Assembly: GCA_011033025.1 (NCBI GenBank)
Contig: WFMF01000028.1
Coordinates: 558,001-622,000, forward strand
Length of the DNA stretch: 64,000 nt
From: Beroe forskalii
Lineage: Eukaryota; Ctenophora; Nuda; Beroida; Beroidae
Direction: 5' to 3'
Both the position numbers and the translations under genes were made by a program. Numbering within the stretch: position 1 is the first letter of the stretch; each line of letters opens with the position of its first letter. The notes beneath the pieces were generated by a model. The model searched no databases. It saw only the letters and a program-made list of their open reading frames with translations, and was not told the origin of the DNA. Positions 10,268 to 53,060 of this stretch are shown piece by piece.

Positions 10268-13200
10268 CTACTCCGCATCCTCGTCGAAATCCTGATCCTC
10301 CTCCATGGCGGCGGCAGCAGCAGCTGCTTCTTCTGCCGCCTGCTTCAGGGCGTCCTCTTCAGCCTTCTTCTTAGCCTCTTCCTTGGCTCGGGCCTCAGCC
10401 GCTTTCCTCTCAGCCTGGGGTCATGGTTTTTAGGAAACCCTGTACACCGTGTTTCATGGTTGTTAGAAAACCCTCTACTGACTACTTTGACTTTGGGTCT
10501 GAAAACACAATGATATATCCTGTGATAACTTAGTTATTAAAATCTATCCAGAGGAGCATTGAGGAAGAGGTTGCACTAAATAAAGTCATTGGAATTACTC
10601 GAGTATTTCTATGTTAAAATCTTACCTCCTCGGCCGCTATCCTCTCAGCTTCCTTCTCCTCTATCGTTCTTTGTAGTTTCGGTGTTTCCAGGATCGTCCA
10701 AAGTGTTTTCTCCACCATTTCCAGGGCCTTCTCTACATCGTCACACTCACCCAGAGCTACCTGAAAAAGTAAACAGGTGAGTCAACCAGAGCTATCTGAA
10801 ATAACAAGCAGGTGAGTCAACCAGAGCTACCTGAAATAGCAAGCAGGTGAGTCAACCAGTGCTACCTGAAATTACAAACAGGTGAGTCAACCAGAGCTAC
10901 CTGAAATAGCAAGCAGGTGAGTCACCTGGTGCTATCAAAAAGGTCTAGGCCGCGCCTGAGTAGTACTATAATGAAACTAAAACACTTCAAACGCTCTTTA
11001 GTGCAGTTAGTGGTACATTCCAAGTATTACCCTGAAACTGCTTCTTTTATCGATTATATAGGTTCACATTCCAGGTATAATCACCTGTTTCTCCACCAGC
11101 AACTGGTTGTTCTGGAGTTGTATCAGCTCCCGCACTTTCTCCGACTGCAGCTCCAGCTCGCGTATCTGTACCACGCCCCCGCTCACTGCCACAGGGAAGC
11201 CGAACACCACGCCGGGTGTGGTACCGTACTGCCCCTCCGACACACACGCCATTGTGGTGGACTGCTCGCCGCCTACCAGGACCGACAGGTGGCGGTACAC
11301 GGCCAGCGCTGCAGCCATGTTGGATTTGTGGCCTGTAGTGGACCTGGAACAAAATATGGCGTGAAGAATTAATTCCACAACAGTGACAACTTACTTGTGA
11401 GATCAGCTCTGCAATGCTTTGGAGACTTGCAGAAGATTCGTATTAAGCACGTGACGGCAGTTAAGATTTCAGAATTGGACTTAAAGGAGTCGAAAAGGTT
11501 TGGGAAAGATAACCGCCTGAATATTCAATCAAAAAGCTGCCTTAGGTATCTTAAAAAGCAACACCCATGATGCAATGGAAAACTCACAGTATCTGAGAAT
11601 CCCGTTCATTGCGAGCATCCACATTCGCACACTCCCAGTCAATTTCATTGACAGCCTCGAATACCGTCTTGTTGTACTCCGCTGGTCCCGTGATTGCACC
11701 CTCGTGATTAGCGACAGTGGCGATGGCTGGACTTGCCACGTGATGTATCGGTATGTTGCCCCAAACAGTTATATCTGATATGTCGCAAGGTAACACCTCT
11801 AAGGGGAGGTATGGTGGTACATTGGGACATTTCTGCATTTCATATTGTCATTATGAGGTTTAACTAAATTATAACGACTACTAATCAACAACGAGGGGAC
11901 TCAAATTAATTGGCGATCATGAGCCAATAGCTTACCTCTAACTTTCTAGCAAGCTTTGCCCTGAGTCTCTGTTCATCGAGAGCCATCACCACAGTAACAT
12001 TGTCACAGTTCACGCCGTAGTGCTGTAGCAACATGCCCCCCAGACACCCCTTGTACCCGTTTATCACGACCTTACAGCCCGCTTTGAGAGAGCCCTTCAG
12101 AGACCCTGCCAGCTCCTTGTAGAAGGTATTGGTAGCCTTGAGAAGGAGGAACCTATCCGCGTGCAGGGAAGTGTCCACAGGGTCCAGGATGATAAGGTAG
12201 TCAGCTTCCTTAGCTGCTGCTTTGAGATCGTGGGAGATCGTCACTGAGTGAAGCTCCTTGTAGGATAAGTCTGATATTTCCATGCTCATTCCTGGAAAGA
12301 GTTGTACAACTAGTCTCTTGAAATGTACTGAATTTCATAACCAGTTTAGAGACAAAAAAGTGTCAAGTTGTCATGCAAGATGCTTGATGCTTGAGAATCT
12401 AATTCATCAAACTTTCATTAATTTGAACTAAACGCAGACCTAACTCCATATCCCATCTCATAACGTAACCAATTGAACGATAACCATGTTACGTACCCTC
12501 CAAAGCCGCGGCATGTTCCTTGGCATCGTAGAGAATGAAGGCGAGGGGTACTTCAGTGAAGCACGAGTTGAAGAGGAGGGGAACGAGACTATAGGCGAGG
12601 GACTGCGCAGCCCCCACGATACAAACCCTGACCGGAACCACGGGGGTTTTCACTGCCGCAGCAACGTTCTGTTGGTGGGTTACCTTGTTCTCTGACGCAA
12701 TGTCCGTCACCAATGCGGGGACTGCGAGGGATTGAAGTTGTAACATCAAGCTACTGTTGCAGAATTAGAAGAGGAAAAAATGCGTAATTTGGACAAGAAA
12801 TTATCAATGTTTAAAACATAGTTGAAATGATTTATTATAAATTTTAAAAAAAAGCATAATCGCACGTCATTTGAAATGCACTACACTGCAAAGCATGGCG
12901 ATATCACCACACATACCAAGTTTATCAGAGTAGCCGTACCAATGTTCCGTCATCTTCTTGAAGTCGTCCCATCCCCCCAGGTAAGTGCCAGCCCCTCCCC
13001 TGTCCACCAGCTCCCGCCATACTAAGGGTGAGGATTCGTGCTTCCAGCCGTGTTTGGAACACGTTTCTTTTAACCAGGCCTTCCACTCGCCATCTGATAG
13101 CACTATCTTGTGTACCTGTGGGAAGGATCTTATGGTGTGGTGTTCTATCAGAAAAACTGCGATATTTTAATGATCCACAATTGATGTCATGATGTGGGAA

Positions 13201-13458
13201 ATGGACGTTACTATTCATTACCGCATCATGATAGAGTAACTGTGACACCACGGCAGAGCTAGCTAATTATCAGGATAACCTGGTAAAACAGAAACAAATA
13301 CAGAAAGCTGCAGTTCAATAGATTTAATGAAAATGATATTCTATAAAAACGAAGCTCACTTTAAAGTCTGGGAGGTTTATAGACAAGTCATCAGCTAAAA
13401 TCTCGGCTCTAGCATAGTTCGGACATTGAGCAACGCCAGCTAGAACATATTGAGCCAT
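10268..13458 (-). CDS. MDH1B: Malate dehydrogenase 1B-like protein (MDH1B)
   Basis: Eight exons (13458-13360, 13115-12913, 12753-12497, 12291-11936, 11796-11588, 11343-11085, 10760-10626, 10414-10268) give one frame of 554 residues; human MDH1B is about 518. The N-terminus [19 protein letters not shown] and the block [16 protein letters not shown] are diagnostic of MDH1B. The rest follows the lactate/malate dehydrogenase fold, but key parts are worn: the dinucleotide glycine loop reads [11 protein letters not shown] (about 147-157), and the catalytic histidine block (IWGNHSS in MDH1) reads VWGNIPI (about 316-322). Human MDH1B lacks that histidine too, so a binding or structural role, possibly in cilia or sperm, is likelier than catalysis. 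The C-terminus extends into an Ala/Glu/Lys-rich helix ([15 protein letters not shown]) ending in DEDAE. Exon 2 must use the donor AT/GTGTGG rather than the nearer GTATGT to keep frame. The exon 7 acceptor lies at the edge of a tandem array. Confidence 0.93.
10750..10935 (-). repeat. Tandem array of a splice-acceptor unit in the MDH1B intron
   Basis: About five copies of a unit of roughly 35-43 bases. Read on the coding strand each copy contains CTATTTCAG followed by GTAGCTCTGG, which is the real exon 7 acceptor and first exon bases (exon 7 begins at 10760), then TTGACTCACCTG. The genuine acceptor is the copy at the downstream end. Alternative use of an upstream copy would add intron sequence to the message. 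Confidence 0.85.
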
Positions 13459-14470: not shown

Positions 14471-14668
14471 TTAAAAAACGCTGCACCTCTTTTTGCACTT
14501 TTCACGGTTTTCGACCTCTAGTTCCTTCAAATAATCGACATCTGGAACGCTCTTTACTTGTGCTACTTTGGTCTCTTCTACATTTAATCCCTGCTGCTCC
14601 TGCCAGGCAACATTTTTCTCTAAAACTCGAGCTTTTCTCAATGCTTCGTGGTGATAAGCTGATGACAT
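14471..14668 (-). CDS. Small hypothetical protein with a C-terminal CaaX-type prenylation motif
   Basis: A 65-residue frame that starts MSSAYHHEALRKARVLEKNV and ends EKCKKRCSVF. The end is a CaaX-like box (C-S-V-F) preceded by a lysine/arginine cluster and a second cysteine, the pattern of small proteins held on membranes by a prenyl group; phenylalanine in the last position would favour geranylgeranylation. The middle is charged and likely helical (VDYLKELEVENREKC). I do not recognise the family. It is the size of a G-protein gamma subunit, but the conserved gamma motifs (KVS, NPF) are missing. It lies between MDH1B and CCDC103 on the same strand. It may be a complete gene or the last exon of a longer one. 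Confidence 0.5.
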   Translation of the reverse strand: MSSAYHHEALRKARVLEKNVAWQEQQGLNVEETKVAQVKSVPDVDYLKELEVENREKCKKRCSVF

Positions 14669-17050: not shown

Positions 17051-17099
17051 TTTGACATAAACCACGTGTTGTAAAATTGAACCAATGCTGGACCTAAGT

Positions 17100-19694: not shown

Positions 19695-19785
19695 CTGTAT
19701 CCTAAACCTAACCATGACCCTAACCAAAACCCTAACCTTAATCCTAACCCTAACAAATCCTGACCCTAATCGTGACCTTCCCCTA
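19695..19785. repeat. Short telomere-like CCCTAA stretch
   Basis: Imperfect repeats of CCCTAACC-type units such as CCCTAACCTTAATCCTAACC. It is too short and degenerate for a functional telomere; an internal relic or a replication-repair insertion is more likely. Confidence 0.6.
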
Positions 19786-21016: not shown

Positions 21017-21026
21017 CGTCTGTCCG

Positions 21027-24000
21027 CGTTGATACTAAAAGGTGGAACCACCCGAAACCACCCGAAACCACCCGAAACCACCCAACCCACCCGAAACCAC
21101 CCCCGAAACCACCCAACATAACTCCGAAACCACCCGAAACCACCCGAAACCACCTGAAACCACCCGAAACCACCCGAAACCACCCAACCCAGCCAACGGT
21201 GGGTTGGGTGGTTTCGGGTGGTTTCGGGTCACTCACATTTAAGTAAAATTTTGGGTCGTTTCGGGCTGGTTTCGGGCTGGTTTCGGGCTGGTTTCGGGAT
21301 GGTTTCGAAATTTTAGCATAAATTGGGGAACTTAAAACACCGAAACCATCCGAAACCACCCGAAACCACCCAAAACCACCCAAAATTCATATTTTGGGTT
21401 GGTTCGGTGGGTTGGGTCGTTTCGGGTAGTTAAATTTTGGCTCGTTTCAAAATTTTTGCATAAATTGGGAAATTCTAACCACCAAAATGACCCAAAACGA
21501 CCCAACCCACCTGAAACTATCCAAAATCCATATTCTGGGTTGGTTTGGGTGGTTTCGCAGTTCAAATTTAAGTAAAATTTTGGTTCGTTTTGCTAGTTTC
21601 GAAATTTTTGCGTAAATTGGGGGTATTCAAACCACCTGAAACCAGCCGATTCCACACAAAATATGAATTATGCACTTTGTGCTGTTTCGTATGGTTTCGA
21701 AATAGCCCGAAACAACCCAAAACAACCCACAACAATCCGAAACCACCCAAACGATGAATTTTGGGTTATGGTGGACTGACGGTTTCTAAACTGGCAATTG
21801 TTATCATATCAATCATTCTCCTCCGATATGTACATTTTGATACTCTGTCGATTTTACGTTAACTTAGCGTGTAGGTACCATTACTCCAATCTCCATTATA
21901 TGATGTATAGCTCTGTTACCAAATAAAATGAGGAAATTTGGTAACTTTCCGAAATTTAATGATCACATGCAATGATGAATCATGAACTGATCATGTGCCA
22001 CGTGCAATGTACATGGATTACGTTTACGAGCACAATTGCATGGAAGTAGTGGCATAAAGCTCTGCAAATTCTCAAATATTACGTAGTCATAGACCAGAGA
22101 TTGTGAGACATCTGAAATCCGAAATTTATATCAATGGCCGTGCTGAAATTCAGCTTGCTGTAGGTACGATATAAGTTATTGGATCATGCTGAAAATCAAA
22201 AAGAGGCTTGCAAAAGAGATGAAATATCACACACAAACTCGTCCACTCGTTAGGCATAGTTTTTTATTTTGTTACAATTACATGCGCTGTTTCTTAATTA
22301 GTTAATTGCCAAAACCTCGATACCATGTCAGTATTACCCGACATACAATTCAAGGGCTGCCTGTAATAACTTATCATTGCACAATACACAAGTAACATTT
22401 GATACACGTCTGTAAGTGTACATTGTGGGGATTTATATAGTCCCACCGCCCACGTGATTATATATCAAGTAACATTAACAACAAAATATAATGTTGGAAT
22501 GTAGTATTTGAACATTTTCATAAAGGTGAATAAGATGAATAAGATGAACGTACGGTCGAATTACATGCAAAAATGTGAATATAAGTGCACGGGCCGTCTG
22601 AGCAATGAAAGTACTGTAATGCAACGAAATGAAGGATTCTTACGCAACCAATGACACATTCACGATATTTCCCTAACTGCCGCTGAACTTGCCCGGGCAT
22701 GTTATGCGTCACGCGCGAAAAATAGGCGCAAGAATTGTTACTGTTACTGACAGTGTCAGGGGCATATTGTTCGTGTGGGACTTACTATTTGTGCGCGATG
22801 TTACCCTCGGCAAAATCTTCCATCATTTCAAACAAATGTCAGATGTTTCGTTGTGAATTATATTTTTGAATGTTTTAATGAATCAGAATTTGCACATTCA
22901 CCAAGTAAAGTGATGCAATCATCATAAGTGATAGTGTTGTTTTAAGAACATTTTTGGGTCAAAAGTGTTACCACGCATGGTTTTCAAAAAGTTCAAAGCA
23001 CCTTTGCCTCTTTACTCTTTTACAGTAAAAGTCTCTCAAACGTTGAATGGTCGTTTGGTTTGCCGTAGACTGCTAGCCCCAGTGTGGACGATTTTCTTTA
23101 CAAGAACTACGTATTTCTCTGTAGATTAAAACCACCATATGCAATTACCCGGCCACTGAGAATCTTTCAGAGCCATTTCACCCCTTTCAACTTGTTTTAC
23201 AATCTGATGCTTCTGACCTATGATTTATGAAGATACATATCAATAACGAGCTAGGCCGTCGGGCTCGTTCTTCGTAGCTCAAGCTGCCACAGGTCATCAA
23301 TAAGTCAATACACGTCTTGTTCCTGATTAACGATTTTAAGTCGAGCTCAGTGTTCAACCCATGTTAATAGTGATAATATAATAATGCTGTTATTTCTTTG
23401 AACCTCGCTCTTGCATTGAATAGTCGTTGTATTTTGCCACAAGAACTTTCTGTTGGTTTTAAAATTCTTTGAAGATTTATATTCAAACTTTCAACATCTA
23501 CTGGGACCCACCTGGTTGCACTACTAGTAGGCCAGTAGAACTCTCTGTTGTTGAGAGTTGCCACCCACTCCGCAAGGTGATGTGGTGGTCCGTGGATTTT
23601 GCACCAAAAAAAAAAAAAAAAAACTTTCAACATTTCCTTTCTAGAAGGGTAAATCTCTCAAATAAGCTCCGAGAATGATAGGTATTGGATAATGGATATA
23701 TCACAGTCAATTCATTGGCCCAGACTATTATTCAGTTTCACATGAATATAAAATCTGCCGCAAAATTCGCTCTCCAGGTATTATACATATTATTGATACA
23801 CGTATGGATTGGGTCACGCTGAATTTGAGCAGAGCCGTGGACACACGAAGTGAAATAGCCCATGTCAGTGTCAACTGTGCAACATGCTGGAGGATGGAAG
23901 TCACGCTACTGATACTGTACTACAGTTATACCATCCGAATTGGAAACTTTTGCCATGGGCTTTCCTTGAATTCACAGTGTATCGGGTTGATTCACGTGGG

Positions 24001-34988: not shown

Positions 34989-37900
34989 ATGGTGGGGTTC
35001 TCTAACAGAATGAAGATGTTCAACGTCTTTGTCAACGCTATCGGCACAATGCTGATCTATACCAGCTTCTTTGCCGGGACCATGCTCATGGTAAGCAGTG
35101 TGCGGGATTCCAGCCCAAAGTTACCATGCTCATGGTAAGCAGTGTGCGGGATTCCAGCCCAAAGTTACCATGCTCATGGTAAGCAGTGTGCGGGATTCCA
35201 GCCCAAAGTTACCATGCTCATGGTAAGCAGTGTGCGTGATTCCAGCCCAAAGTTACCATGCTCATGATAAGCAGTGTGCGGGATTCCAGCCCAAAGTAAC
35301 CATGCTCATGGTAAGCAGTGTGCGGGATTCCAGCCCAAACTAACCATGCTCATGGTAAGCAGTGTGCGGGATTCCAGCCCAAAGTTACCTTGCTCATGGT
35401 AAGCAGTGAGCGGGATTCCTGCCCAAAGTTACCATGCTCATGATAAGCAGTGTGCGGGATTCCAGCCCAAAGTAACCATGCTCATGGTAAGCAGTGTGCG
35501 GGATTCCAGCCCAAAGTTACCTTGCTCATGGTAAGCAGTGAGCGGGATTCCTGCCCAAAGTTACCATGCTCATGGTAAGCAGTGTGCGGGATTCCAGCCC
35601 AAACTAACCATGCTCATGGTAAGCAGTGTGCGGGATTCCAGCCCAAACTTACCTTGCTCATGGTAAGCAGGCAGTGAGCGGGATTCCAGTCCAAACTAAC
35701 CTTGCTCATGGTAAGCAGTGAGCGGGATTCCAGCCCAAACTAACCATGCTCATGGTGAGCAGTGTGCGTGATTCCAGCCCAAACTTACCTTGCTCATGGT
35801 GAGCAGTGTGCGTGATTCCAGCCCAAACTTACCTTGCTCATGGTAAGCAGTGAGCGGGATTCCAGCCCAAACTAACCATGCTCATGGTAAGCAGTGTGCG
35901 GGATTCCAGCCCAAACTTACCTTGCTCATGGTAAGCAGTGTGCGGGATTCCAGCCCAAACTTACCTTGCTCATGGTAAGCAGTGTGCGGGATTCCAGCCC
36001 AAACTAACCATGCTCATGGTAAACAGTGTGCGGGATTCCAGCCCAAAGTTACCTTGCTCATGGTAAGCAGTGAGCGGGATTCCAGCCCAAACTAACCTTG
36101 CTCATGGTAAGCAGTGTGCGGGATTCCAGCCCAAAGTTACCTTGCTCATGGTAAGCAGTGTGCGGGATTCCAGCCCAAACTAACCATGCTCATGGTAAAC
36201 AGTGTGCGGGATTCCAGCCCAAAGTTACCTTGCTCATGGTAAGCAGTGAGCGGGATTCCAGCCCAAACTAACCTTGCTCATGGTAAGCAGTGTGCGGGAT
36301 TCCAGCCCAAAGTTACCTTGCTCATGGTAAGCAGTGTGCGGGACCATGCTCATGGTAAGCAGTGTGCGGGATTCCAGCCCAAAGTTACTTGTTTTATTTT
36401 ATTTTTGATCGGGCACTACGGTGGTCTTCCGGGTAATCCTAAAAGTATGCCTTCTAAATTTGAGTTCTCGGACAATGGCAATCTTTTTAGTGGAAATGTC
36501 TTTGATTTTATACATATTACTTTAATAAGAGAGTCTCCTCACCAACTGCCCCCTGCAGCCTACTCTGCTGAAAGCCACCATTGACGAGCAGACTGTGTTC
36601 TACTCTATGGCTGTCCACTCCCTCACTGCCTGCGTCAGCTGCCCCGCTGCCATGTTCATTATCAAGTCAGTTCATGTTTCTATGTGTTTTGTTAGTGAGC
36701 TGCCCCGCTGCCATGTTCATTATCAAGTCAGTTCATGTTTCTTTGTGTTCTGATAGTGAGCTGCCCCGCTGCCATGTTCATTATCAAGTCAGTTAATGTT
36801 TACTTGTGGTTTGTTAGTCAGCTGCCATGTTCATTATCAAGTCAGTTCATGTTTCTTAGTGTTTTGTTAGTCAGCTGCCCCGCTGCCATGTTCATTATCA
36901 AGTCAGTTCATGTTTCTTTGTGTTTTGTTAGTGAGCTGCCCTGCTGCCATGTTCATTATCAAGTCAGTTCATGTTTCTTTGTGTTTTGTTAGTGAGCTGC
37001 CCTGCTGCCATGTTCATTATCAAGTCAGTTCATGTTTCTTTGTGTTCTGTTAGTCAGCTGCCCCGCTGCCATGTTCATTATCAAGTCAGTTCATGTTTCT
37101 TAGTGTTTAGTTAGTTAGCTGCCATGTTCATTATCAAGTCAGTTCATGTTTTGTGTTTTGTTAGTCAGCTGCCCCGCTGCCATGTTCATTATCAAGTCAG
37201 TTCATGTTTCTTTGTGTTTTGTTAGTCAGCTGCCCCATGTTCTGCCATGTTCATTATCATGTTCATTATCAAGTCAGTTCATGTTTCTTTGTGTTTTGTT
37301 AGTCAGCTGCCCCGCTGCCATGTTCATTATCAAGTCAGTTCATGTTTCTTAGTGTTTTGTTGCCCCGCTGCCATGTTCATTATCAAGTCAGTTCATGTTT
37401 CTTTGTGTTTTGTTAGTGAGCTGCCCCGCTGCCATGTTCATTATCAAGTCAGTTCATGTTTCTTTGTGTTTTGTTAGTGAGCTGCCCCGCTGCCATGTTC
37501 ATTATCAAGTCAGTTCATGTTTCTTTGTGTTTTGTTAGTGAGCTGCCCCGCTGCCATGTTCATTATCAAGTCAGTTCATGTTTACTTGTGTTTTGTTAGT
37601 GAGCTGGCCCGCTGCCTGCCATGTTTGTTAGTCAAGTCAGTTCATTACTATCTTTTCTTAATGTTTTGTTAGTCAGCTGCCCCGCTGCCATGTTCATTAT
37701 CAAGTCAGTTCATGTTTCTTTATGTTTTGTTAGTCAGCTGGCCCGCTGCCATGTTCATTATCAAGTCAGTTCATGTTTCTTTATGTTTTGTTAGTGAGCT
37801 GGCCCGCTGCCATGTTCATTATCAAGTCAGTTAATGTTTACTTGTGGTTTGTTAGTCAGCTGCCATGTTCATTATCAAGTCAGTTCATGTTTCTTTGTGT

Positions 37901-40900
37901 TCTGTTAGTCAGCTGCCCCGCTGCTATGTTCATTATCAAGTCAGTTCATGTTTCTTTATGTTTTGTTAGTCAGCTGCCCCGCTGCCATGTTCATTATCAA
38001 GTCAGTTCATGTTTCTTAGTGTTTTGTTAGTCAGCTGCCCTGCTGCCATGTTCATTATCAAGTCAGTTCATGTTTCTTTGTGTTTTGTTAGTGAGCTGCC
38101 CTGCTGCCATGTTCATTATCAAGTCAGTTCATGTTTCTTTGTTTCATGTTTGTTTTCCTAGTTCATGTTTTAATTGTTTCTTCTGCTTCTCCTAATAGCT
38201 ATGTAGCTGCAAGCTGCACGTTGTCACCACTAACAATTAACATCCTCCATCTCCAAACATTTCGGCGCCAAGCTGTCTCTCATCACGGGCAGCATCTGCT
38301 GTGTCTTCTTCTACATCTCCATCATGATACCCAACTCCGTGGCTATCTACGCGACCCAGTCTGTGTTTGGGTTCGGACTGGCGTTAGTCAGACCTGCTTC
38401 ACTCAAGTTCTTAGTGAGGAACTCCACTCCTGATAACATGGGTAAGGGTTTATGTTTCATCCAGCCATCACGTAACTTCTTCCTCTTTAGTCTTTACTTC
38501 ACAATCATTGGAGGTGGAGTAATGTAAAAAGTGGCTAGATTGCTATCTCAGATATATTAATTGATCGGTTACGTCTTCACATGACGTCATGGCATCCCAG
38601 GAAGAGACTCTGGCATCCACTGGGGAGTCTTCATGAGCAGCATGATTTGGGGAAACGCTATCGTCTTCATCGTTACCCACGGACAGACGGACGTGGACTA
38701 TCAGAAGAGGTAATTTCATTCGTTATTTTGCTTGTCTATGTTTTGCCTTTTTTTTGGTGTATTTTTTTGCATGCTTCCAAATCTGTTTTTGTATCTTGAG
38801 CATTCCTCTCAATCAGTTATCGCCTTACAATTGTCAATCCCGCACCCCCAGGATGATGGTGTACGCTATTCTGGGGAGCCTGAGCCTGCTGGGAACTATC
38901 TGCTACGTGCTGCTGAGGAGTCCTCCACGACCCCAGGGGGAGAGGCAACCGCTACTCGATGGGATGAGCTTTATTCTTTGTGCAGAGAACTGCAGAGAAC
39001 TAGATGGGGTGAGTTTTATTCTTAAATACATGAAGAGGTTCTTAGTGCAGAACTGCAGATAACAAATTAAGCTATAATAGGGTGGCTATGGTTTTAAATT
39101 TACCGTCAAGAAGAAAACTACTCCGGGCTGTCTGTTGTTTGTGAATCGAATACGGTTAATGATTTAAGGAAGCTTTCTCTTACTGTAGCATTTGACAACC
39201 TCATAACAGTCCACTATCTGCCCATTGCAGATGAAAGAAGACCTGAGCCCTCGTACCTGTGGCAACCTGCTGAAGGAGACCTTCTCTCTGGTTATTCTGA
39301 AGCAGACTTTGTGGCTGGTTCCCTCAATGGCTGCTGCTGGCTTCTACTTCACCATGTACTGTGTAGAGGTGAGCAATCCTGAGAGCATTCCTAGTGTAGA
39401 GGTGAGAAAACCTGAGAGCATAATTTGCTGTAGACTGGTCCTAGGAATTTTCCTGAATTCTTTAAGATCATCCAAATATGATCTAGTCTCATATATAATC
39501 AAGTAATCTCTATTCAATGCACTTATTCCTAATCACTGTTTCCCAGATCCCTACTATGCTAGGAGAAAACATAGCCCTGTTTGGCATGGTTGTGGGAGTT
39601 GGGGAACTCGTGGGATCTCTTGCTCTAGGTATGAATTCAGATTATTGGTATGATCACTTTTGTAGTGACCAAAAAGTAAGGCTTAAAATGTCTATACTCT
39701 ATGGAAAGTTGAATTAGGCGCCGATCCAACTAATTTGTATGCTGTTCTGTCTTATTTGTATGGTTTATAACCCTCTCAGTGTTAACTCTGCAGGTAAAAT
39801 ACTGAGTGTGTTCAGCTATGTGTTGGTAACTATCCTGTCCGGGTGTCTGGCTGTCATCTCACTCCTCCTCACCTGCACCTCCTTCCCAAAGGTAAGTTCT
39901 TACAATACTTGGAGAGCCTGGCAATGCAACCGCCTGGTTCATGTGCGGGGTTCTAAATTTATTCCAATATGGTCATTGCATTAGCTTACCTAAAGTTTCA
40001 ACTTGAGATCAACCTGAGATTGTCATGCCTTTGACCAATCAGCACGCGAGATCGCACTCAACTCATATTGGCGACATATACGTTGGAAAAAGGGCTTCCA
40101 GTGTTCAATATTTACTCAGTACTGTGTTCCACACTTCCCACATGCTCGTAACACGTTCCTACTCCTGTAGGACACTGAATCAGCTATCCTAACCCTAACC
40201 CCTACTCTATATCTCCCCCAGGACACTGAATCAGCTATCCTAACCCCAACCCTAACCCCCAGGACACTGAATCAGCTATCCTGCACCCCCCTGGAATAGC
40301 TATACTGGTGGCAGTAGCTCTGGCGTACGGTGTCAGTGATGCAGGGAACAACCTCTCCCTCAACACAATCATTGGACGGCTCTTCAGCGAGCGAAGCGAG
40401 GTAGGTACTGGGTAATTATCATGTGTTGTAGGTTTGTGGTAGTGACATCACTATCAAGGAGTGAAGCGAGGCGAGTACTGAATAGGGGTCATGTTATGCA
40501 AGGTTGTTAAATACGTATTTTTAAGATACGGCAAAAAATATAATGCGTATTTTTTGGCAGAAACTGTCTTACCTTTTTCTTCTTCAATTTTGAAATTTTG
40601 CCAAAATTTCGATTAAGCACTATTGTCACATAAAGGTCGCGCGCGTACTCTAAATGTTTTCGATAACATCGTTTCATTGTAATAAGGGTTGTTAAATACG
40701 TGAAAAAGTACGCGCGCATTCGCTATCAAATGATAGCGCATGCGCCCGTACTTTTTCACGTATTTAACAACCACTATTTAGACTCCATGGTGAGATTTTT
40801 AAGTCGCGTATTATGAGAAAAATACGCCTAATAGAAATAGGCCAATACGTCGTACTTTTTGGTTTTTCTCTTGCGCTCCCAGTTAGCCAGGTATATGGGC

Positions 40901-41086
40901 CCCTTTACTATAACGACACCCCTATCCCAGGTGATATTCTGCGTTCTCTCCTGTGTGATGAACCTGGCAGCCATGACCTGGTACTTCATCTACACCGTGG
41001 TTGCCTGGGAAACTATCATCGTAGCAACGGGGCTCTCCGTTCTAGCTAGCATGATCGGAATCTTCATTGTTGTGAGACCGAAGTGA
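34989..41086 (+). CDS. UNC93/MFSD11-like membrane protein, 10 coding exons
   Basis: Exons 34989-35090, 36559-36665, 38257-38441, 38601-38709, 38852-39008, 39231-39368, 39547-39628, 39794-39891, 40263-40400 and 40883-41086 give a continuous frame of 439 residues; human MFSD11 has 449. Matches to MFSD11 run the whole length: MKMFNVFVNAIGTMLIYTSF (SKKLFNIIILGVAFMFMFTAF), FGAKLSLITGSI, DSGIHWGVFMSSMIWGN, LGSLSLLGTICYVLLRSP, VGVGELVGSLALG and GVSDAGNNLSLNTIIGRLF. About twelve hydrophobic segments fit a major facilitator fold. UNC93-family proteins act as ion-channel regulators or as escorts for receptors; transport by MFSD11 has not been established to my knowledge. Exon 3 needs AA in place of AG at 38255-38256 to keep frame. 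Six junctions of this gene carry tandem duplications, described separately. The family call is firm; the exact orthology (MFSD11 or another UNC93 branch) is less so. Confidence 0.85.
35079..36390 (+). repeat. 44-bp tandem array that copies the exon 1 splice donor
   Basis: About 29 copies. Each unit carries ACCATGCTCATG (the last 12 coding bases of exon 1) directly followed by GTAAGCAGTGTGCGGGATTC and CAGCCCAAAG. The first copy overlaps exon 1 itself, so the array was seeded on the exon-intron border. Copies vary at a few positions (GTAAGC, GTGAGC, GATAAGC; TGTGCGG or TGAGCGG). Nearly all keep an intact GTAAGC donor. Confidence 0.95.
36625..38135 (+). repeat. 60-bp tandem array that copies the end of exon 2 with donor and a mock acceptor
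   Basis: About 24 copies. The unit holds CAGCTGCCCCGCTGCCATGT and TCATTATCAA (last 30 or so coding bases of exon 2), then GTCAGTTCATG (donor) and TTTCTTTGTGTTTTGTTAG (a pyrimidine-rich tract ending in TAG). Each copy is therefore framed like a 30-odd base mini-exon with its own acceptor and donor. Exon 2 forms the first copy. Some copies are shortened or have extra bases. Confidence 0.95.
40160..40290 (+). repeat. Triplicated exon 9 acceptor
   Basis: GGACACTGAATCAGCTATCC occurs three times (about 40,170, 40,221 and 40,262), each preceded by TAG or CCCCCAG and, in the first two copies, followed by CTAACCC. The third copy leads into the conserved coding sequence and is the likely true exon 9 start. 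The intervening CCCTAACCC bases resemble a telomeric motif. Confidence 0.85.
40687..40774. repeat. Long perfect-looking palindrome in the last intron of the UNC93-like gene
   Basis: GGTTGTTAAATACGTGAAAA at the left is matched by TTTTCACGTATTTAACAACC at the right, around CGCATTCGCTATCA and TGATAGCGCATGCG. Arm length is about 42 bases. A related GGTTGTTAAATACG phrase stands alone near 40,502, which suggests a larger inserted element. Confidence 0.85.
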
Positions 41087-41092: not shown

Positions 41093-41215
41093 GACAGCTG
41101 CACCCATGGGGACTTTGACAGAGACCAATGAAACAGCTGCATTTAACCATGGGTACTTTGACAGAGACCAATGAGACAGCTGCATGTTACCCACGGGTAA
41201 TCAGGGACCAATCAG
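41093..41215. repeat. Short tandem repeat after the UNC93-like stop codon
   Basis: The phrase GAGACAGCTGCA with CCCATGG and ACTTTGACAGAGACCAATGA is present two to three times with a period of about 45 bases. It begins seven bases past the stop codon, in the presumed 3' untranslated region. Confidence 0.75.
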
Positions 41216-42145: not shown

Positions 42146-42224
42146 CGAATAATTGCAATTGTTTTGCACGCGAGTTTAAGTGATGGAGTCGTAGATATCC
42201 ACGAGTTTTGTGAATTCCGAGTTA

Positions 42225-43790
42225 GAATAATGCGTCAATTCCAAGTTAGAATAACGTGTCAATTCCAAGTTAGTATAATGCGTCAATTCCAAGTTAGAAT
42301 AACCTGTCAATTCCAAGTTCCAATAATGCATCAATTCCAAGTTAGAATAACGTGTCAATTCCAAGTTAGAATAACGTGACAATTTCAAGTTAGAATAACG
42401 TGTCATTTCCAAGTTAGAATAACGTGTCAATTCCAAGTTAGAATAACGTGTCAATTCCAAGTTAGAATAACGTGTCAATTCCAAGTTAGAATAACGTGTC
42501 AATTCAAGTTAGAATAACGTATACTGTAAACCATATAGTTTTCATGGTGCTATTTTTCGCGTTTCTTTAAAAACAGGTAATTTCACGGTTTTAATTTTTC
42601 AAAATTCCTTAAACACAAACCAGTGCTTGTACGTGGCCATTTATCATTTTCGCTCATTGCTGTACGCCTTGATAGCCGGTGATTGTACAAAGGCAAAAGT
42701 AATGAGGTGTCTTGTTCGTCTATGTTTACTTAAGTGTGCCTCTGTTTGTCAGACATTACAGCATGTCATCCGTAAACGATACTGCGAACTTAGTTGAGAA
42801 CAATGTTTCTAATGAGACACTTTGAGTTGAAAATAATGCCTCTTGAAGTTAGAATATATCGACTTATCGAATACCTACCAACAATAGCATAAGTTTCTTC
42901 CACTCAAAAAATACGCAGATATAAATTTATCTCCAAGAATTGAAAATTAACTTCACGGCTGATATTTTCGCGGATTTTCTTTTCCAAATAAATGCGCGAA
43001 AATTAATGCCGCGCGAAAATTAATGGCTTTACAGTATATTCCAAGTTAGAATAACGTGTCAATTCCAAGTTAGAATAACGTGTCAATTCTAGGTTAGAAT
43101 AACGTATTAATTCCAAGTTAGAATAACGTGTCAATTCTAGGTTAGAATAACGTATTAATTCTAAGTTAGAATAACGTGTCAATTCCAAGTTAGAATAACG
43201 TGTCAATTCCAAGTTAGAATAACGTATTAAGTCCAAGTTAGGATAACGTGTCAATTTCAAGTTAGAATAACGTGTCAATTCCAAGTTAGAATAACGTGTC
43301 AATTCCAAGTTAGAATAACGTGTCAATTCCAAGTTAGAATAACGTGTCAATTCCAAGTTAGAATAACGTGTCAATTCCAAGTTAGAATAACGTGTCAATT
43401 CCAAGTTAGAATAAGGTATATATTCCAAGTTAGAATAACGTATATATTCCAAGTTAGAATAACGTGTCAATTCCAAGTTAGAATAACGTGCCAATTCCAA
43501 GTTAGAAAGTTAGAATAACGTGTCAATTCCAAGTTAGAATAACGTGTCAATTCCAAGTTAGAATAATACGTCATTTCTAACTTAGAATAACCTGTCAATT
43601 CCAAGTTTGAATAACGTGTCAATTCCAAGTTAAAATAACCTGTCAATTCCAAGTTAGAATAACGTGTCTATTCCAAGTTAGAATAACGTGTCAATTCCAA
43701 GTTAGAATAACGTGTCAATTCCAAGTTAGAATAACGTGTCAATTCCAAGTTAGAATAACGTGTCAATTCCAAGTTACAATAACGTGGTTT
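42225..43790. repeat. 24-bp minisatellite interrupted by a MITE
   Basis: Unit CAATTCCAAGTTAGAATAAC plus GTGT, about 40 copies in two blocks (42225-42520 and 43037-43790). The 24-base period keeps all frames open on the minus strand, producing long false frames of RYSNLELT repeats. Most copies in the second block are nearly identical, suggesting recent expansion. Confidence 0.95.
42522..43036. mobile_element. MITE with TACTGTAAA ends, TA target duplication, 515 bp
   Basis: Left end TACTGTAAACCAT, right end ATGGCTTTACAGTA, each flanked by TA. The interior carries near-end ATTTTTCGCG and CGCGAAAATTAATG words. It splits the 24-bp minisatellite, which is continuous on both sides, so the insertion is later than the array. 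A TA duplication fits Tc1/mariner-type transposases, but no transposase frame is present. Confidence 0.85.
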
Positions 43791-44243: not shown

Positions 44244-44246
44244 TTA

Positions 44247-45103: not shown

Positions 45104-48100
45104 TCAGTGGGTGTTGTTTTCAATGACATTTTCTTTTTCGCCATCTTTTAGCCTTTTCTCAAACGTTGACCTCTTCTTTGATCCAATCCAGTCTTCCCTA
45201 ACATCATGCCACTTCAAACCCAGCCTGCTCTTCAAGGATCTACAAAAAGAGCCACTGTTATAACTGTCAAGGAAAGCAGCTTGTATGAACTCACAGATGG
45301 CAATGAGGAAAGATAAGACTATTCCAGTGAAAAGTATGAGAAAGAGGCCCCTAAGATGTGCCATGCTGAACTTAGTGTCGCTTCCTAGCAAACTATCAGC
45401 TCCACAGTCCAGTTTCTGGTCCGGGTTCTCAAACCAGAACTCGAAGGTTTCCACGAACCAGCCCTCGTCTCTGTAGACCAGGAAACGTCTGTTGATGGCT
45501 TCCATGTAAGGGGAGTGAGGCTGCACTCCCATTGCCCACTGGTTGTGAAACCTGTTCATCTTGTTTAGCACCATGTCGCAGTCTTTGTTGGCATGTATAA
45601 TCAGTGCCGAGCTGTCCCCTGCCATGTACACAAAGTCCCCCTGTTTCACTCGCTCTATCGCCGCTGCTTCCTCGTCGCTGGGGATCCTGACAGCGTTCCT
45701 GGCAATCTTCCGGAACTGCTCGTTGTCGCTTTCCTCCAGGAGGGACTCGAAGCTGATGTTACCCATGAACCCCCACTCATACTGTGTCTGCGACAGCAGG
45801 TCCTCTATCTTAGTTATCCCTGTGTCTGAGCGCTCCAGAGTGAGATGGGCTGTTAAGTTGGCAGTGAACATGGTAGTCATCATCATGATGAACAGCCACC
45901 ACACGAACAGCAGGAACCTGCCTGACAGAGCTTGAGGGAGAACATCAGTCGCTTGCCCAACTAGACCTGGGATGGGGATTGGATTATTGATTACTGCTGT
46001 ATGCTAATTACTTAATTACGTTAGGGAATCAGTACCTAATTAGTATGGCAGCAGTTCAATGAGACAAGTCTCTTCTCCAATGTTATCTTAATAGTTAATA
46101 TCTTATCTTATCTTATCTTCTGAGAACTGATTAATTCGACTTTTACCTGTGCTGACGAGAAAAGTGGAGTTGTAAAGGGACAAGTCACATAAGTAACCGC
46201 TCTCTTCGGCTTCACTCAATAGACAATCATGAGATTTCGTTTCAGCAAGTCGACACTTTCTAGCTACTTTTATGTTTCGCCTCTCAGCACAGCTGCTACA
46301 CTCGCAGCATTGCATGGCATGGATTTTTCTACCATAGAATCCGTAAGGAGAAAACTTGCCGAAAAAGCTTATAAATGCTCCTATCACCAGTGTTAACAGC
46401 AGAATAGATACCCAAACTGTGATATCAAAGGGTTCCATGAAAAAGAACATGTCAGATAATCCTTTTGAAGATTTGGATTTATATAGAATGAATCCTGCTT
46501 CATCTTCAAAGAATGAGGAAGTGAAGTCAATGACTCTAGAACGCATTAAGTTGATTGATATGCCCAGACACAGATCTATTTTCCTGTTGATGAGATCCCT
46601 CACCAGGCCGTTCCATTCTCCGTTGTAGAACCCTCCCCATTGTCTGTCTTCAGGCATGACATACTCATAGGTGAACTTCAACTCAGTAGCTAGTCTCTGG
46701 AATATCTGAGGATTCCATCCGTACCAACAATCAGGAGAAGAGATGCTGGCCGAGTCTTGACTGCAGGACTCGTTGATAACTGCTAGAGGACTGAACGGCA
46801 ATATCCCTATCTTGATGTGATACCCTAACAGGTTTTCTGCCACGCCTGACGGCGGGGAGTAAGACCCTCCAATGAACTTTACGTCGCTTCTACCTGGCCA
46901 GGGGACCTGTTCTTCTTTCAGATTTGTCAGTTTGGTTTCAGGGTTCCATTTGCCAATTCTCTCGAAACCATTTTCAACACTTTTAAAGTTCAAGATGTCA
47001 TAAGTTGGCAACTCGGATTTGAATACAACATGTTTTCCATTCAAGAGATTCTCCCCCATCTTGTCATGGAAAGCTGTGCCAGAACTCCAAGGTATTTCTG
47101 GTAGGGCACAGGTCAGACCGCTTGGTTCTGAGAAGCCTGGAGTTTCTTTGATGGAGCCATGTATCAGCCTGATAGCATCCGAGATGTAAATCGTACACAT
47201 GTTAATATCTGTGGGCATGTGCTCGGCATTGGACTCAGTGTAGTCATCCTGCATCTCTGTGAAGGCTTGTGTTTCTAGTCCATAGTTTGGTTGAGTCCCC
47301 AACAAACCAACATAGGTGCTGCTGTACTTTCCATTTGCTTTTAGAGTTTCCTGATTAGCTGTTGTTCCTTCTGATGTTATCCAAACATAAGATTCAGTTA
47401 ACAAACCTCTCTTTGCTGCTTCACTGAAAATTATTGATATGATTGAAACATTTAGTTAAGAGGATTTCCGAAATTTTTCGATCATGAGAAATGAATAGTT
47501 GGTAAATTGGAGGTTTGTAATCTTAAATTGCCATTTAGATGAATAAAACTTGAAGGAAGGATGACTCCCTGTGCATTTTTATTTGCAATTTCCTAATTAA
47601 AAATATTCCAGCAGTTTTATGGAAATCATTAAGTGATTAGAAATTTACCTGAAAATCCTCTTTGCATAGATGCCCCTACAATGCAGTACAATCACCTTGA
47701 CCAGCTCGCTCTTAATGAGATCTAGTTCTTCCTCGAACAAGTATTCTTCATCATTTATATCAAAGTGCTGCACGAATTTCAAGTCAAATGCAGCATTCTG
47801 TGTTGCTAAGTTCTGGAGCTCAAGAACCCCATTGATTCCGTAGTCATCTGCAGACGCAATGATGGAGAAGTCATACCACCTGTACTCCTTCAAGAGGTCA
47901 AATATTGCTTGACTTTGATGCAAATCAGAGGGGATGAAGAACTGAATCCAGCTGTGGAAATGAAGGTAGGGGTTCGAAGCAGCTGTTGCTAGGATGGGAA
48001 CCTGGACACCCCTCAGAATGTCTTCCTCTATTGCTGCTGTGGAGGAACCACTGTCAGATATCACAGCAACCACCCCTTCCTCAATGAAACTGCAGACTAC

Positions 48101-48307
48101 CTCGTAAGTACTGAGCACAGTGCTATCATGCTGTTTCATCTGCACCTCAATGCCACCTCCTAGCTTCCCAACTGTGTAATCAGTTATCCTTCGCACCGCA
48201 TCCTCATCATAACATCCATTTCCTTCAAGGAGTATTCCAACTTTATAGCCAAAGATACAGGAGATGGTGAGCAGCGGAATCAGGGGAAGATAAGTTGTTA
48301 GTGCCAT
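45104..48307 (-). CDS. Ionotropic glutamate receptor subunit, complete, three exons
   Basis: Exons 48307-47649, 47423-46147 and 45966-45104 give one frame of 932 residues. A signal peptide (MALTTYLPLIPLLTISCIFG) precedes an amino-terminal ligand-binding-like domain. Ligand-binding half S1 spans about 423-541, with NGEWNGLVRDLINRKIDLCL and the conserved arginine in LMRSRVIDF (about 514). M1 is near 552-574, the pore loop near 636-656 (GLVGQATDVLP then QALSGR), and M3 near 667-690 with TANLTAHLTLER where most receptors have SYTANLAAFLTVER. S2 has an acidic residue at GDS (about 763, the NMDA-type aspartate position) and two cysteines (DCDMV, KLDCG) in the usual disulphide places. M4 is near 850-872. 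The site equal to the AMPA Q/R/N position appears to be glycine. It should form a ligand-gated cation channel in the plasma membrane; the ligand (glutamate or glycine) is open. Confidence 0.95.
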
Positions 48308-49985
48308 ACCATTCCTTCCTTTTGGTTTGCATGGGTATGACCAAGCAACAAGCCCAATAGAATGCTATTTAGACACAGAGCTGATATCAAGGATAAAGGT
48401 TGAAGCGGCCCCATTTTAACCAGCGTTTTTTAACCGGCCCTTTGGACAAAAATCTCAAAGACGTTTTTTTTTAGATTTAAAAGCCGGTTATATGGTGCAT
48501 TATGGTACAAAAAATTGGGTTGACATCGAAAGGAATCGATCTCCATAAATGCAACAATTTTGAAAACAATCAAAGAAGAAATAGGAACAAGTATCAACAT
48601 TTATTTCTCTGAAAACTCGGTTGGCCAGTGACTACACTATTTAACTACACTATTTAACTACACTATTTAACAGGAGCAGACAGTATCTCACGGGGACAAT
48701 ACTAACCCACTATCTCACTTTTTCCTCCCATACTGGGCCTAGCTCCAAATATCGTGCAGTGATTCAACCTTTGCCGTATTTCGTGTCTTTGTGTACAATT
48801 TAGTACAAGTGTACCAAGAAAAAGTGGACAAAAGTTAATAACTCGGCTTTTGTTTAGAATTTCTGGATAAAATTTTGGGAAGTTATAGATAAAGGCTGAA
48901 AGTTTTTGCACAAATAATTTGAATGTCCGAATAATCAACGAAAAACCGGTTTTCGCCCATATCTCCAAACAGAAGCCGAGCGTTTACTTTTGTCCATTTT
49001 TTCGTGGTACACCCGGTACATTTATGGTCCGATGAATGCAATTTTTCCCAAAATCGAGACTGTATTGACACAGTGGAAAAAAATTAGTTTTCCATTTCCA
49101 GCCATGACCCAAAATTATGTCGGATTTCCATTGTCCGTCCACAATTATAAATGCCCTGACAGTTAATTAAGCAGTTATCAAATTGTTCAAACTACAGTTT
49201 TCTACAAAGAATCTTTACTTTCTGCCTTAGATTCTGCCTAAATTAAATTAGCCATGAATTTTTGATATTTTGATAAAATCAAATTTTATATGTATGAGTC
49301 AGACTAAAAATAAGAGTCAAAAATATTCGCTATCAGTTTCTGTAGGCTCCTATGAGTAAAGATAAAACAGAATTCTAATAAGACGACGGCAAAATGATTA
49401 CACAGAGGCAGAATGCTGATCATACTCATACTCATTCGATATGAAATCATCTTATCTAGATCCGAGATCCGGAGATCCGGAGCTCCGATCTAGACCCAGG
49501 ACAATAGAAGAAAGGATATAGTATATCCTCTCTTCTATATCTCTCTTCTTGTTATACAAGTCCAACTTCGCCATAGTTTTGTTTTTTCCTACCGTGAGCT
49601 GAGCATAAGTCCTATAGGTTATTGTCGGTTTGATGAAGCCGAGAAGAATCACAATTTTCATGGAAAGGACGAATATACGGGTCGTTGTCAGCGTCAATAT
49701 ATAGAACCTCCGACTGTTTACTCCTTATCATAGTTTATCTGTAAGCAATCAAAATGTATGATGCTTTTAAAGCATCATTAGTTTTGATCCGGAGGTTTTA
49801 TAACACTCATCATTTTTTGATATCATAAACACATGGATCTGTGAAATGCTAATATATGCAGTGATCAATTAGGAAATAACAGAGGCGACCTACTTTTTGC
49901 TGCTACAAAGATTCTGTAATGGCCAATCTTTCCTCACGGGGCATATCAACTGCTAGATTTTTTTAGTTTTTAAATCTCAGCATCA
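48308..49985. other. Intergenic upstream of the receptor, with repeat traces
   Basis: Holds the receptor's presumed promoter, a copy of the GGCCGGTTAAA repeat family in reverse orientation (about 48,405-48,490), a triplicated ACTACACTATTTA phrase near 48,632-48,670, and a small palindromic run of CCGGAGATCCGGAGCTCCG near 49,467-49,490. No gene recognised. Confidence 0.4.
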
Positions 49986-49989
49986 ATGG

Positions 49990-50480
49990 AAGGTACACTG
50001 CTGAGTATGGGCGTGTAGCTTTTATTGCGGTGTCTAAATTACACTTATTTATTAACTGAGAGAACAGCAACCTAAATATTCATATCAGTGGTCGTGCGAT
50101 AATATAAAACGTTTTTCACTGTAAGTCGCCAACTGCCCACCCATCTCAAATGTTGTGGTGGCAGATTGCATCGAAGGACATGTATGGGGAGCCTAAAAAC
50201 CGAGTCTGGTACATTTTGTGCCTCATAGTCTTGGTACACTGCTGAGTATGGGCGTGTAGCTTTATTGCGGTGTCTAAATTACACTTATTTATTAACTGAG
50301 AGAACAGCAACCTAAATTTTCATATCAGAGGTCCGGCGATAATATAAAAAGTTTTTCTTAAAAGTTTTTTCACTGTAAGTCGCCAATCGCTCACCCATCT
50401 CAAATTTTGTGGTGGCAGATTGCATCGAGAGGCCTGCATAGGGAGCCGAAAAACCGAGTCCTGTATATTGTGTGCCTCAT
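49990..50480. repeat. Two-copy direct tandem duplication, period about 240 bp
   Basis: GGTACACTGCTGAGTATGGG at about 49,991 recurs at about 50,232, and similarity extends through TTATTAACTGAGAGAACAGC, CACTGTAAGTCGCCAA, TGGTGGCAGATTGCATCG and TGTGCCTCAT. Copies differ at a few percent of positions. The unit has no long frame. Confidence 0.85.
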
Positions 50481-51792
50481 TGTCCATCTGATGACCCCTT
50501 GTTAGCCCAGAGCACTTGTTGGTTTTTAGGCCTTCAATTATTATCAACACCTGACACTATGGATTACTTCTTCATTAAGTCACACGACAAAATCTTTGGT
50601 CTAAAAGTGAGATTGGTAAGAAACCTAAAATTTCGTTCAGATGAGGTTTTCTGTCGGCTCTAATACGGTGATGTTGTACCGAAAGCTGAGTCATCCGGCC
50701 CAATTCAAGTCTGCAAAATTTAATGCTTGAATACATACCTACCTACCAACTCAGGAACCTAGAATTCTCTGTAAAATTCTTGTGAAATCGTTGTGCCAAC
50801 GTTGCTATGAGTGTTTCCAACTTTTTAATTTTAAGGTGAGCTATTAGGGAATCTACCTTTTTCCTCACAGTGTAATTTTAGATTTTAGATCATACGAAAT
50901 CCGCATGATAACATTGAGATTTGGGTGCTATCATACTCCTCTATAAGTTGACTTACTTTTTATTCTAGTATTCAACCCCAAGAGTAAGCCCACAAATTTC
51001 AGCATTTTTTCAAGGACCCCCATTTTTATTTAAATCATTGCGGATATTGTGTACTTCATATACTTTTTTCACAAAACAATGGAGTCATCAACGACAACTT
51101 GATTTACATAAATCGAAGGTCTATTTGTGATTTTATTTTACACAATCATGATGATCATTTCTACAAATTTTATCGAAATGGCAAAATCAAATATTCGTTT
51201 TGGTCAAAAAACGATTTGACTCGGAAATCTATTTTAAAAACGACGCTCTCAACTTTCTTGGCGATGTTTGTATAGGAACAGTTACATCTAAAGATCTCAG
51301 TAATCAGTACTGCCCAGTGATACTAAGCCTAGCTGATCCTTCAAACTCTACAACGTATGCAGTACATAAAGTGTAGAACTGGGACATTTTCGCTGGCAAA
51401 ATCTTTAGAAATGCTAAGTGCAAAAGCTTCTGACAAAATCTTATGAATATGGCGTAAGAAAGCTGGCAAATTCCTCCAGCTGAAAAGCTGACATATTTGA
51501 CATTCAAAATTTGCATTTAATTATAACCCAGGATTCCGTGCTCCACTCAAAACTACATTCAATATACTCATTCTTGTAACATAATGTGAGCAAACTAAAA
51601 CTCTTGTGAAAGAAACACGTACAGGGAAAGATGTTTAGTGTCTCTACTTCTAGAAGTTAGCCCATAGCGACTCACCATGGCAACCATGTTGTCCTCATGG
51701 CAACCTAAAACGCTCCATGACAACTAATACGTCACCATGGTAACCTATGAAGCTAAGTCCTGGTTATGATATAAGCTGCATGCTGTGAGGAA
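50481..51792. other. Intergenic, 3' region of the peptide precursor gene
   Basis: AT-rich DNA with no exon that I can support. A small triple repeat of CATGGCAACC and related words lies at about 51,677-51,745. The 3' untranslated part of the peptide gene must begin at the right edge. Confidence 0.35.
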
Positions 51793-53060
51793 TTAATATT
51801 CGTTTTCTCCGGCGAGCTCTTCACTGTCTCCTCCCACTCCAGTCCAGCCTCGTCTGCCCTGCTTGTAGCCCTTGTAGTCACTGATATCGAACTTTGTACC
51901 TCTCTTCACTAGGTTCGAACTGTCTTCCTCTGAAGATTTTATCATTAATTGTGAGTTGAGAATCAAAACATTAGGTTAGTAGACATATTCTTTACTTGTA
52001 GTTTAATGGAAGAAAATATAAGTTAGAGTTTCAGCGTGTTGGTAATTTGCCAACAAGCACCATCCGACCTGATACAAATATAATATCTATTAAAATTGTA
52101 AGATGTAATATTGATGACATATGACCAAGTGCTGAACCCTCATCTAACTCCTATGGGGTAATGTCCGAAGGTGCTTAGAAAGTAAAAATCAATGCAGTGG
52201 TGAATTGGTGTAATGGTTAACAAGTCTTCGATTCCTGCCAGTAGCTGCCACTGATGCTGGAAGTGAAATAAAGCAGTCCTAGAAACCTCACCACATCTTG
52301 GAATGGAAGTGAAATAAAGAGAACTCACCACATCTTGGAATGGAAGTGAAATAAATAGAACTCACCACATCTTGTTATGGAAGTGAAATAAAGAGAACTC
52401 ACCACTTCTTGGAATGGAAGTGAAATGAAGAGAACTCACCACTTCTTGGAATGGAAGTGAAATAAAGAGAACTCACCACATCTTGGAATGGAAGTGAAAT
52501 AAAGAGAACTCACCACATCTTGGAATGGAAGTGAAATAAAGAGAACTCACCACATCTTGGAATGGAAGTGAAATAAAGAGAACTCACCACTTCTTGGAAT
52601 GGAAGTGAAATGAAGAGAACTCACCACTTCTAAGAATGAAAGTGAAATAAAGATAACTCACCACTTCTTGAAAAGGAAGTGAAATAAAGAGAACTCACCA
52701 CTTCTTGGAATGGAAGTGAAATAAAGAGAACTCACCACATCTTGGAATGGAAGTGAAGTAAGGAGAACTCACCACTTCTTGGAATGGAAGTGAAATAAAG
52801 AGAACTCACCACATTTTGGAATGGAAGTGAAATAAATAAAACTCACCATATCTTGGAATGGAAGTGAAATAAGGAGAAGTCACCACATCTTGGCATGGAA
52901 GTGAAATAAGGAGAACTCACCACATCTTGGAATGGAAGTGAAATAAAGCAGTCCTACAGAACTCACCGCTTCCGTTGAGCTCGACGGTATCCTCCTCCTG
53001 GATGGCTTTGCTGTTGATGATGGCAATCATTCCAAGGAGTACAACTAGGAAGAACTTCAT
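51793..53060 (-). CDS. Secreted peptide precursor with a predicted amidated peptide
   Basis: Two exons (53060-52967 and 51929-51793) give a 76-residue precursor. It starts with a strong signal peptide (MKFFLVVLLGMIAIINSKA), followed by an acidic spacer (IQEEDTVELNGSEEDSSNLV). A Lys-Arg cleavage site then precedes GTKFDISDYKGYKQ, which is followed directly by Gly-Arg-Arg, the classical signal for dibasic cleavage and C-terminal amidation. An acidic tail ending EELAGENEY closes the protein. The expected product is a 14-residue peptide ending in Gln-amide. The layout is that of a neuropeptide or peptide-hormone precursor, acting outside the cell probably through a G-protein-coupled receptor or channel. 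I know no family with this sequence. The intron is filled with a donor-site tandem array. The exon junction is phase-consistent; function is inferred from processing signals alone. Confidence 0.75.
52260..52965 (-). repeat. 34-bp tandem array copying the peptide gene's splice donor
   Basis: About 20 copies. On the coding strand each unit reads GTGAGTTCTCTTTATTTCAC then TTCCATTCCAAGAAGTG, and the next GTGAGTTC follows at once. The real exon 1 donor is GGAAGCG/GTGAGTTC at the start of the array, so each unit repeats a complete donor context (AAGTG or GATGTG before GTGAGT). Most copies keep a consensus donor. Confidence 0.92.

Follow-up and report, generated by a model that had tools for sequence, protein, structure and literature searches.

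Tandem repeats across exon-intron borders of an UNC93-like gene in the ctenophore Beroe forskalii resemble the mirages of lancelets

We analysed tandem repeats at exon-intron junctions in a 64,000-nucleotide (nt) stretch of the Beroe forskalii genome (contig WFMF01000028.1, positions 558,001 to 622,000; hereafter the window), which holds an UNC93-like gene, an MDH1B gene and a peptide-precursor-like gene. Tandem copies of a gene's own exon-intron border were found at 7 of 38 junctions, six of them in the UNC93-like gene and one in MDH1B. Five of the affected junctions are donors and two are acceptors, so that 5′ and 3′ borders alike are hit. These repeats are probably mirage-type minisatellites of the kind known from lancelets: a duplication that spans a border by chance, followed by growth of the array inside the intron and use of the exon-proximal splice site. 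They appear to be a genuine and rich instance of a phenomenon already known from lancelets and not a new kind of structure.

Gene models were made in silico on the DNA by joining exons at splice sites, with one open frame required. Such a frame runs across the joined exons of the UNC93-like gene, and the protein matches the Pfam family UNC-93 (PF05978, E 9.8e-34); a comparison with the PDB gave no match at E up to 1. For MDH1B, whose exons were also joined in an open frame, the top PDB match is the putative malate dehydrogenase 1B (9fqr_Xq, E 1.1e-64). The two genes and their repeats are listed here, with unit lengths in base pairs (bp) and copy numbers from Tandem Repeats Finder (TRF) where stated:

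34989..41086, plus strand: UNC93-like gene, 10 coding exons, 423 amino acids
35079..36371, plus strand: array A, at the UNC93-like intron 1 donor; 44 bp, 28.7 copies (TRF)
36634..38142, plus strand: array B, at the UNC93-like intron 2 donor; 61 bp, 24.9 copies (TRF)
38954..39023, plus strand: duplication C, at the UNC93-like intron 5 donor; lag 45, two copies (self-comparison)
39361..39421, plus strand: duplication D, at the UNC93-like intron 6 donor; lag 33, two copies, 8 exon bases
40169..40282, plus strand: duplication E, at the UNC93-like intron 8 acceptor; three copies, lags 51 and 41, 20 exon bases
40389..40480, plus strand: diverged duplication at the UNC93-like intron 9 donor; two copies, lag 70
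10268..13458, minus strand: MDH1B gene, 8 coding exons, 542 amino acids
10747..10984, minus strand: array G, at the MDH1B intron 6 acceptor (before exon 7); 35-bp units (TRF)
10421..10478, minus strand: duplication H, in MDH1B intron 7; two copies, lag 33, intronic, close to the acceptor but excluding it

The unit of array A joins the last 12 bases of exon 1 to 32 intron bases, and the unit of array B joins the last 32 bases of exon 2 to 29 intron bases. The exon end is present 30 times in array A, with the GT kept in 28 of the 30; the 24 matched exon-end copies of array B are all followed by GTCAGT (24/24). Intact decoys therefore adjoin the true site. Introns 1 and 2 are 1468 and 1591 nt long, versus 142–530 nt for the remaining seven introns of the gene, which bears out an initial annotation of this DNA in its claim that the repeats accompany longer introns. 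Array G has five copies with an AG and two degenerate copies without one, and its unit includes, by eye, about 16 exon bases. Elsewhere in MDH1B, intron 4 (11797-11935) has TTAGAGGT at each end, with 8 nt common through both borders, which may be chance.

We also searched the genes for ungapped tandem similarity at lags of 15–160 bases with a score of at least 12; applied to 18 shuffled gene sequences, this search gave a single segment. The four smaller UNC93-like duplications (introns 5, 6, 8 and 9) do not appear in the TRF output even at score 30. At the intron 9 donor, local alignment found the two copies identical at 18/22 bases (shuffle P 0.0015). A telomere-like CCTAACCC sits between the copies of duplication E; telomere-like CCTAAC runs occur inside the window at 19701-19769 and 40188-40258, one of them among the intron 8 acceptor copies. 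The intron 2 acceptor of the same gene (38240-38260) reads ...ccatctccaa/ACATTT at the border with exon 3, with AA replacing AG. The joining that closed the frame lies here, and the AA would be an allele, an assembly error or an unusual site.

The third gene lies on the minus strand towards the end of the window, and its translation had no Pfam match at E up to 0.05:

51793..53060, minus strand: peptide-precursor-like gene, 2 coding exons, 76 amino acids; signal-like start and KR site by eye
52287..52948, minus strand: array I, near the peptide gene donor; 37 bp, 17.9 copies (TRF)

The unit of array I has the donor motif GGTGAGTTC in common with the junction, but just one exon base. Ahead of GGTGAGTTC, the array has mostly AGATGT or AGAAGT, versus GGAAGC in the exon.

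To place the repeats relative to the borders, we scanned 38 junctions of four genes (these three and an ionotropic glutamate receptor gene), seeking 16 exon and 6 intron bases of each junction in about 150 bases of the adjacent intron. Six of the 38 reached P<0.01: UNC93-like donors 1, 2, 6 and 9, UNC93-like acceptor 8, and MDH1B acceptor 6. The UNC93-like intron 5 donor missed the scan (P 0.29) because its other copy lies on the exon side; tested directly, it gave P 0.0005, and it makes the seventh junction of the count. The peptide gene donor, at P 0.04, lay above the cut-off, and the probe for the MDH1B intron 7 acceptor found no copy in the adjacent intron (P 0.81). The initial annotation had described arrays carrying exon bases across at least eight junctions of three genes, with units of 33–60 bases. 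The UNC93-like gene and MDH1B fit this description and the peptide gene, with its single exon base, does not; the count falls to seven junctions in two genes, and units or lags begin at 33 bases as described but extend to 70.

Control probes reached P<0.01 in 10 of 318 cases within exons (one at duplication C) and in 5 of 220 within introns away from the arrays, so that about one chance hit is expected among 38 junctions. The difference between 6/38 junctions and 15/538 control tests is significant (Fisher P 0.0014), with probe shuffles that preserve single-base composition only. Because the intron control leaves out the arrays by design, this contrast is favoured, and a test based on duplication events (below) is the fairer one.

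We then used each copy in turn as the splice site, in silico, at arrays A, B, G and I and duplications D and E. Of the 30 copies tried in array A and the 24 in array B, the first alone gave the full UNC93-like protein, and of the three acceptors in duplication E the last alone did so. Likewise, full MDH1B came only from the exon-proximal of seven positions in array G (two of the seven lack an AG), and the full peptide protein only from the exon-proximal of 18 copies in array I. Duplication D keeps the frame with either donor, the second donor adding 11 codons. The earlier proposal that any copy of a donor or acceptor works is thus not supported in silico: five arrays need the exon-proximal copy, and the two-copy duplication D alone keeps the frame from either copy.

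The most interesting detail is UNC93-like intron 5, a candidate for an exon edge shifted by a captured repeat unit. Copy 1 of duplication C reads GATGGG/ATGAG, in which the donor GT is gone, and copy 2 reads GATGGG/GTGAG. The 45-nt unit (38964-39008) consists of 15 in-frame codons that run on to the second donor. Removal of these 15 residues raised the UNC-93 profile score slightly (117.6 bits with them, 119.7 without) and lowered that of MFS_1 slightly (56.6 with, 56.3 without); the profile scores lend weak support to an inserted origin of these putatively captured exon 5 residues. One could go further and suppose that tandem duplication in this genome falls preferentially on splice junctions, with arrays that lengthen introns and also occasionally donate a coding unit once the outer donor dies, shifting the exon edge as the 45 in-frame nt of exon 5 may have done. 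We regard this wider generalization as doubtful.

Structures of this form have been described in amphioxus. Minisatellite-like repeats over exon-intron borders, termed mirages, are reported from Adh3, BflGb6 and BflGb9 in B. floridae and B. lanceolatum by PMC3087553, which cites further amphioxus loci with like structures and finds both 5′ and 3′ borders hit. According to the same report, mirage clusters vary in length and Adh3 shows somatic instability; globin reverse transcription-polymerase chain reaction and Adh3 data suggest undisturbed regular splicing, and a model of intron gain is proposed. A PGBD5 mirage is added by PMC3902484, which also names troponin C (TnC), and PMC2632668 mentions that introns of amphioxus VCBP3 contain exons in whole or in part, some of which have canonical splice sites. 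The form had been presented in the initial annotation as not previously described; this claim of novelty fails because the same structure was reported from amphioxus under the name of mirages, intron gain included (PMC3087553, PMC3902484). Among the titles and abstract openings listed by searches of open-licence papers, none announces a genome-wide count of such junction repeats, which is weak evidence that this question is open.

The likeness extends to several features. In amphioxus as here, tandem units lie over exon-intron borders, both 5′ and 3′, with splice signals within many units. Amphioxus units are given as 10–72 bp in Adh3, 150–160 bp in the globins, and 60 and 108 bp in PGBD5, and those described here also measure tens of bases. 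The globin and PGBD5 mirages have 2 to 7 repeats, whereas we counted 30 and 24 exon-end copies. Unlike the amphioxus mirages as described, six junctions are affected in one gene and one unit is coding-like; our material, moreover, is DNA. Arrays of splice motifs within repeats are also seen in the dual-specific splice sites of tandem repeat genes such as UBC (PMC10809524). There, however, splicing at the repeated sites varies the number of coding monomers included, whereas here splicing at the inner copies of the large arrays would leave the protein broken or truncated. The stretch is a dense natural test bed for a little-studied lancelet phenomenon. Arrays A and B, with 24 to 30 nearly identical donors in a row and an intact protein from the first one only, would show how a spliceosome tells the correct site from equivalent decoys.

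The internal order of the arrays bears on their growth. In array A, a stretch of 207 nt recurs exactly at a spacing of 176 nt, equal to four units; in array B, stretches of 110 and 101 nt recur exactly at a spacing of about 1.1 kb. Array units differ by many substitutions and small indels, which fall in ordered variant patterns and not as noise. The block repeats and ordered variants fit unequal exchange or slippage of multi-unit blocks. Two-copy, three-copy and 24–30-copy stages all occur within the UNC93-like gene, and TGTAGA at both edges of duplication D is a hint of possible short-homology slippage.

We picture the formation of a mirage-type array as follows. A short segment that by chance straddles an exon-intron border would be tandemly duplicated by slippage or short-homology repair. 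The outermost copy would still hold the entire exon edge and splice site; the duplicate would therefore fall inside the intron, and the mRNA would stay the same provided that splicing takes the exon-proximal site. Multi-unit blocks could then be exchanged or slip, so that the duplicate expands to as many as about 30 copies, with the inner copies carried along as passengers bearing decoy splice sites. We infer both this mutational mechanism and the cell's choice of the proximal site.

Whether borders are crossed more often than chance placement predicts was assessed in an event test of eight duplications (A to E and G to I) that lie inside the three genes' coding spans. A hit was a duplication that crosses a junction and includes 5 or more exon bases; hits and misses were assigned by hand. 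The genes were also reduced to one unit by hand, with duplication C left uncollapsed, and array I was kept as a miss. The test omits the intron 9 donor duplication (below the lag-search threshold), a duplication at 41104-41199 (past the stop codon), a small repeat at 38126-38194 abutting array B, and weaker or nested segments (e.g., 12111-12122, score 12.0). With uniform placement of one unit, 6 of 8 events crossed a junction versus 1.48 expected (P 0.00064). Expectation was 2.12 without purely coding segments (P 0.0051) and 1.33 with segments of at most 55% coding (P 0.00037). Counting C as a miss gave 5/8 (P 0.0042–0.033), and dropping it gave 5/7 (P 0.0017–0.014). All five UNC93-like events cross a junction (5/5, P 0.0002–0.0021), versus one of the three in MDH1B and the peptide gene (P 0.32–0.51); the junction excess thus rests on the UNC93-like gene. 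These P values are post hoc, the window having been picked for the pattern. The count of crossings (6/8, P 0.0004–0.005) agrees with the proposal of non-random placement, but it is post hoc and depends on one gene. In the window at large, 13 of 18 arrays with a period of at least 20 lie outside the seven placed coding spans, so that arrays are not confined to junctions and the region is minisatellite-rich in general; the 18 were listed by hand from the TRF output, omitting 63191-63228 and rows also present with a shorter period (17729, 24256, 24590 and 34309).

Two findings weigh against the mirage-type account. Border crossing in 6/8 exceeds the 1.3–2.1 expected, even without purely coding segments, and tolerance alone may therefore be an incomplete account. 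The unit of the peptide gene array lacks the exon part. The border excess is what a junction-directed mutational process would produce, in which transcription-linked breaks, R-loops or nucleosome edges cause splice borders to be duplicated preferentially. This process would explain both the event test (6/8 versus 1.33–2.12, P 0.00037–0.0051) and the junction scan (6/38 versus 15/538 at P<0.01). We nonetheless consider it improbable: the excess was found post hoc in a single window selected for the pattern, it comes from one gene (5/5, versus 1/3 in the other two), it shrinks to P 0.0042–0.033 with duplication C as a miss, and most hand-listed arrays (13/18) lie away from the placed coding spans. 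Ordinary tandem duplication combined with tolerance would give a similar look.

Two further explanations were weighed against mirage-type growth. The Rogers model of intron gain by tandem genomic duplication, in which an intron comes to lie between two AGGT copies, shares with our case a tandem duplication that copies splice signals and may leave the mRNA unharmed (review PMC3443670). MDH1B intron 4, with TTAGAGGT at both ends, would suit it, and a related proposal was made for the amphioxus globins (PMC3087553). However, the introns here are existing ones that were lengthened, and their ends are not mutual copies: 16 of the 17 introns compared, including those bearing arrays, have a total of at most 5 nt of identity through the two borders. 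Intron gain by this route is thus very unlikely. The model was rejected, since donor and acceptor should then be copies of one duplicated segment, and among the 17 introns MDH1B intron 4 (8 nt) is the only one with such ends. An assembly artefact deserves mention since misassembly is a well-known hazard of repeat arrays; PGBD5 copy numbers differ between two lancelet sequence versions (PMC3902484) and one globin mirage was aberrantly assembled (PMC3087553). Yet the array copies differ in an ordered way by numerous substitutions and small indels, the diverged two- and three-copy cases are hard to obtain by assembly stutter, and the PGBD5 sequence was confirmed by re-examined and new reads, according to its authors (PMC3902484). 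We find an artefact highly improbable, and pure assembly stutter was rejected on the diverged low-copy cases and the ordered copy variants.

The fourth gene of the junction scan, for which two introns were placed by sequence reading, is the following:

45104-48364, minus strand: ionotropic glutamate receptor gene; Pfam Lig_chan and ANF_receptor, Cys-rich stretch in the translation

By eye, the Cys-rich stretch follows the first membrane segment. For Epsilon receptors, an insertion is described that lies between membrane segments one and two and is called a "cysteine-rich loop" in ctenophores (PMC6307864). The same study reports them from non-bilaterians, hemichordates and non-vertebrate chordates, with an expansion in cephalochordates, and did not find them in the protostomes, echinoderms or vertebrates that it covered. 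On its Cys-rich stretch, the receptor is possibly of the Epsilon type; its top PDB matches, kainate and AMPA receptors, give no support to this assignment.

Searches of the window with Rfam (gathering scores) and ARAGORN gave no matches. Among the seven coding spans, one without a Pfam match is presumably MYCBP, and we take the genes with Pfam matches to Dynein_attach_N and Sugar_tr to be presumably CCDC103 and GLUT. Nested inverted repeats at 32800-33880 resemble a miniature inverted-repeat transposable element; examples of their arms measure 107 nt (88% complementary), 101 nt (94% complementary) and 52 nt (100%). A 23-base piece of this palindromic repeat was searched for in collections of prokaryote genomes and viral contigs and matched none of them exactly. 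One 24-bp unit forms two arrays, at 42209-42520 and 43038-43786, with about 0.5 kb between them. Arrays of a 10-bp unit (GGGTGGTTTC) at 21046-21385 and 24001-24867 lie about 2.6 kb apart in mostly opposite orientation. A direct duplication at 49992-50484 has a spacing of 240-254 bp, with pieces of 31, 97 and 126 nt that are 100, 95 and 86% identical. Outside any placed gene, a 23-bp G-rich unit forms a 2.5-kb array with higher-order structure at 58139-60626.

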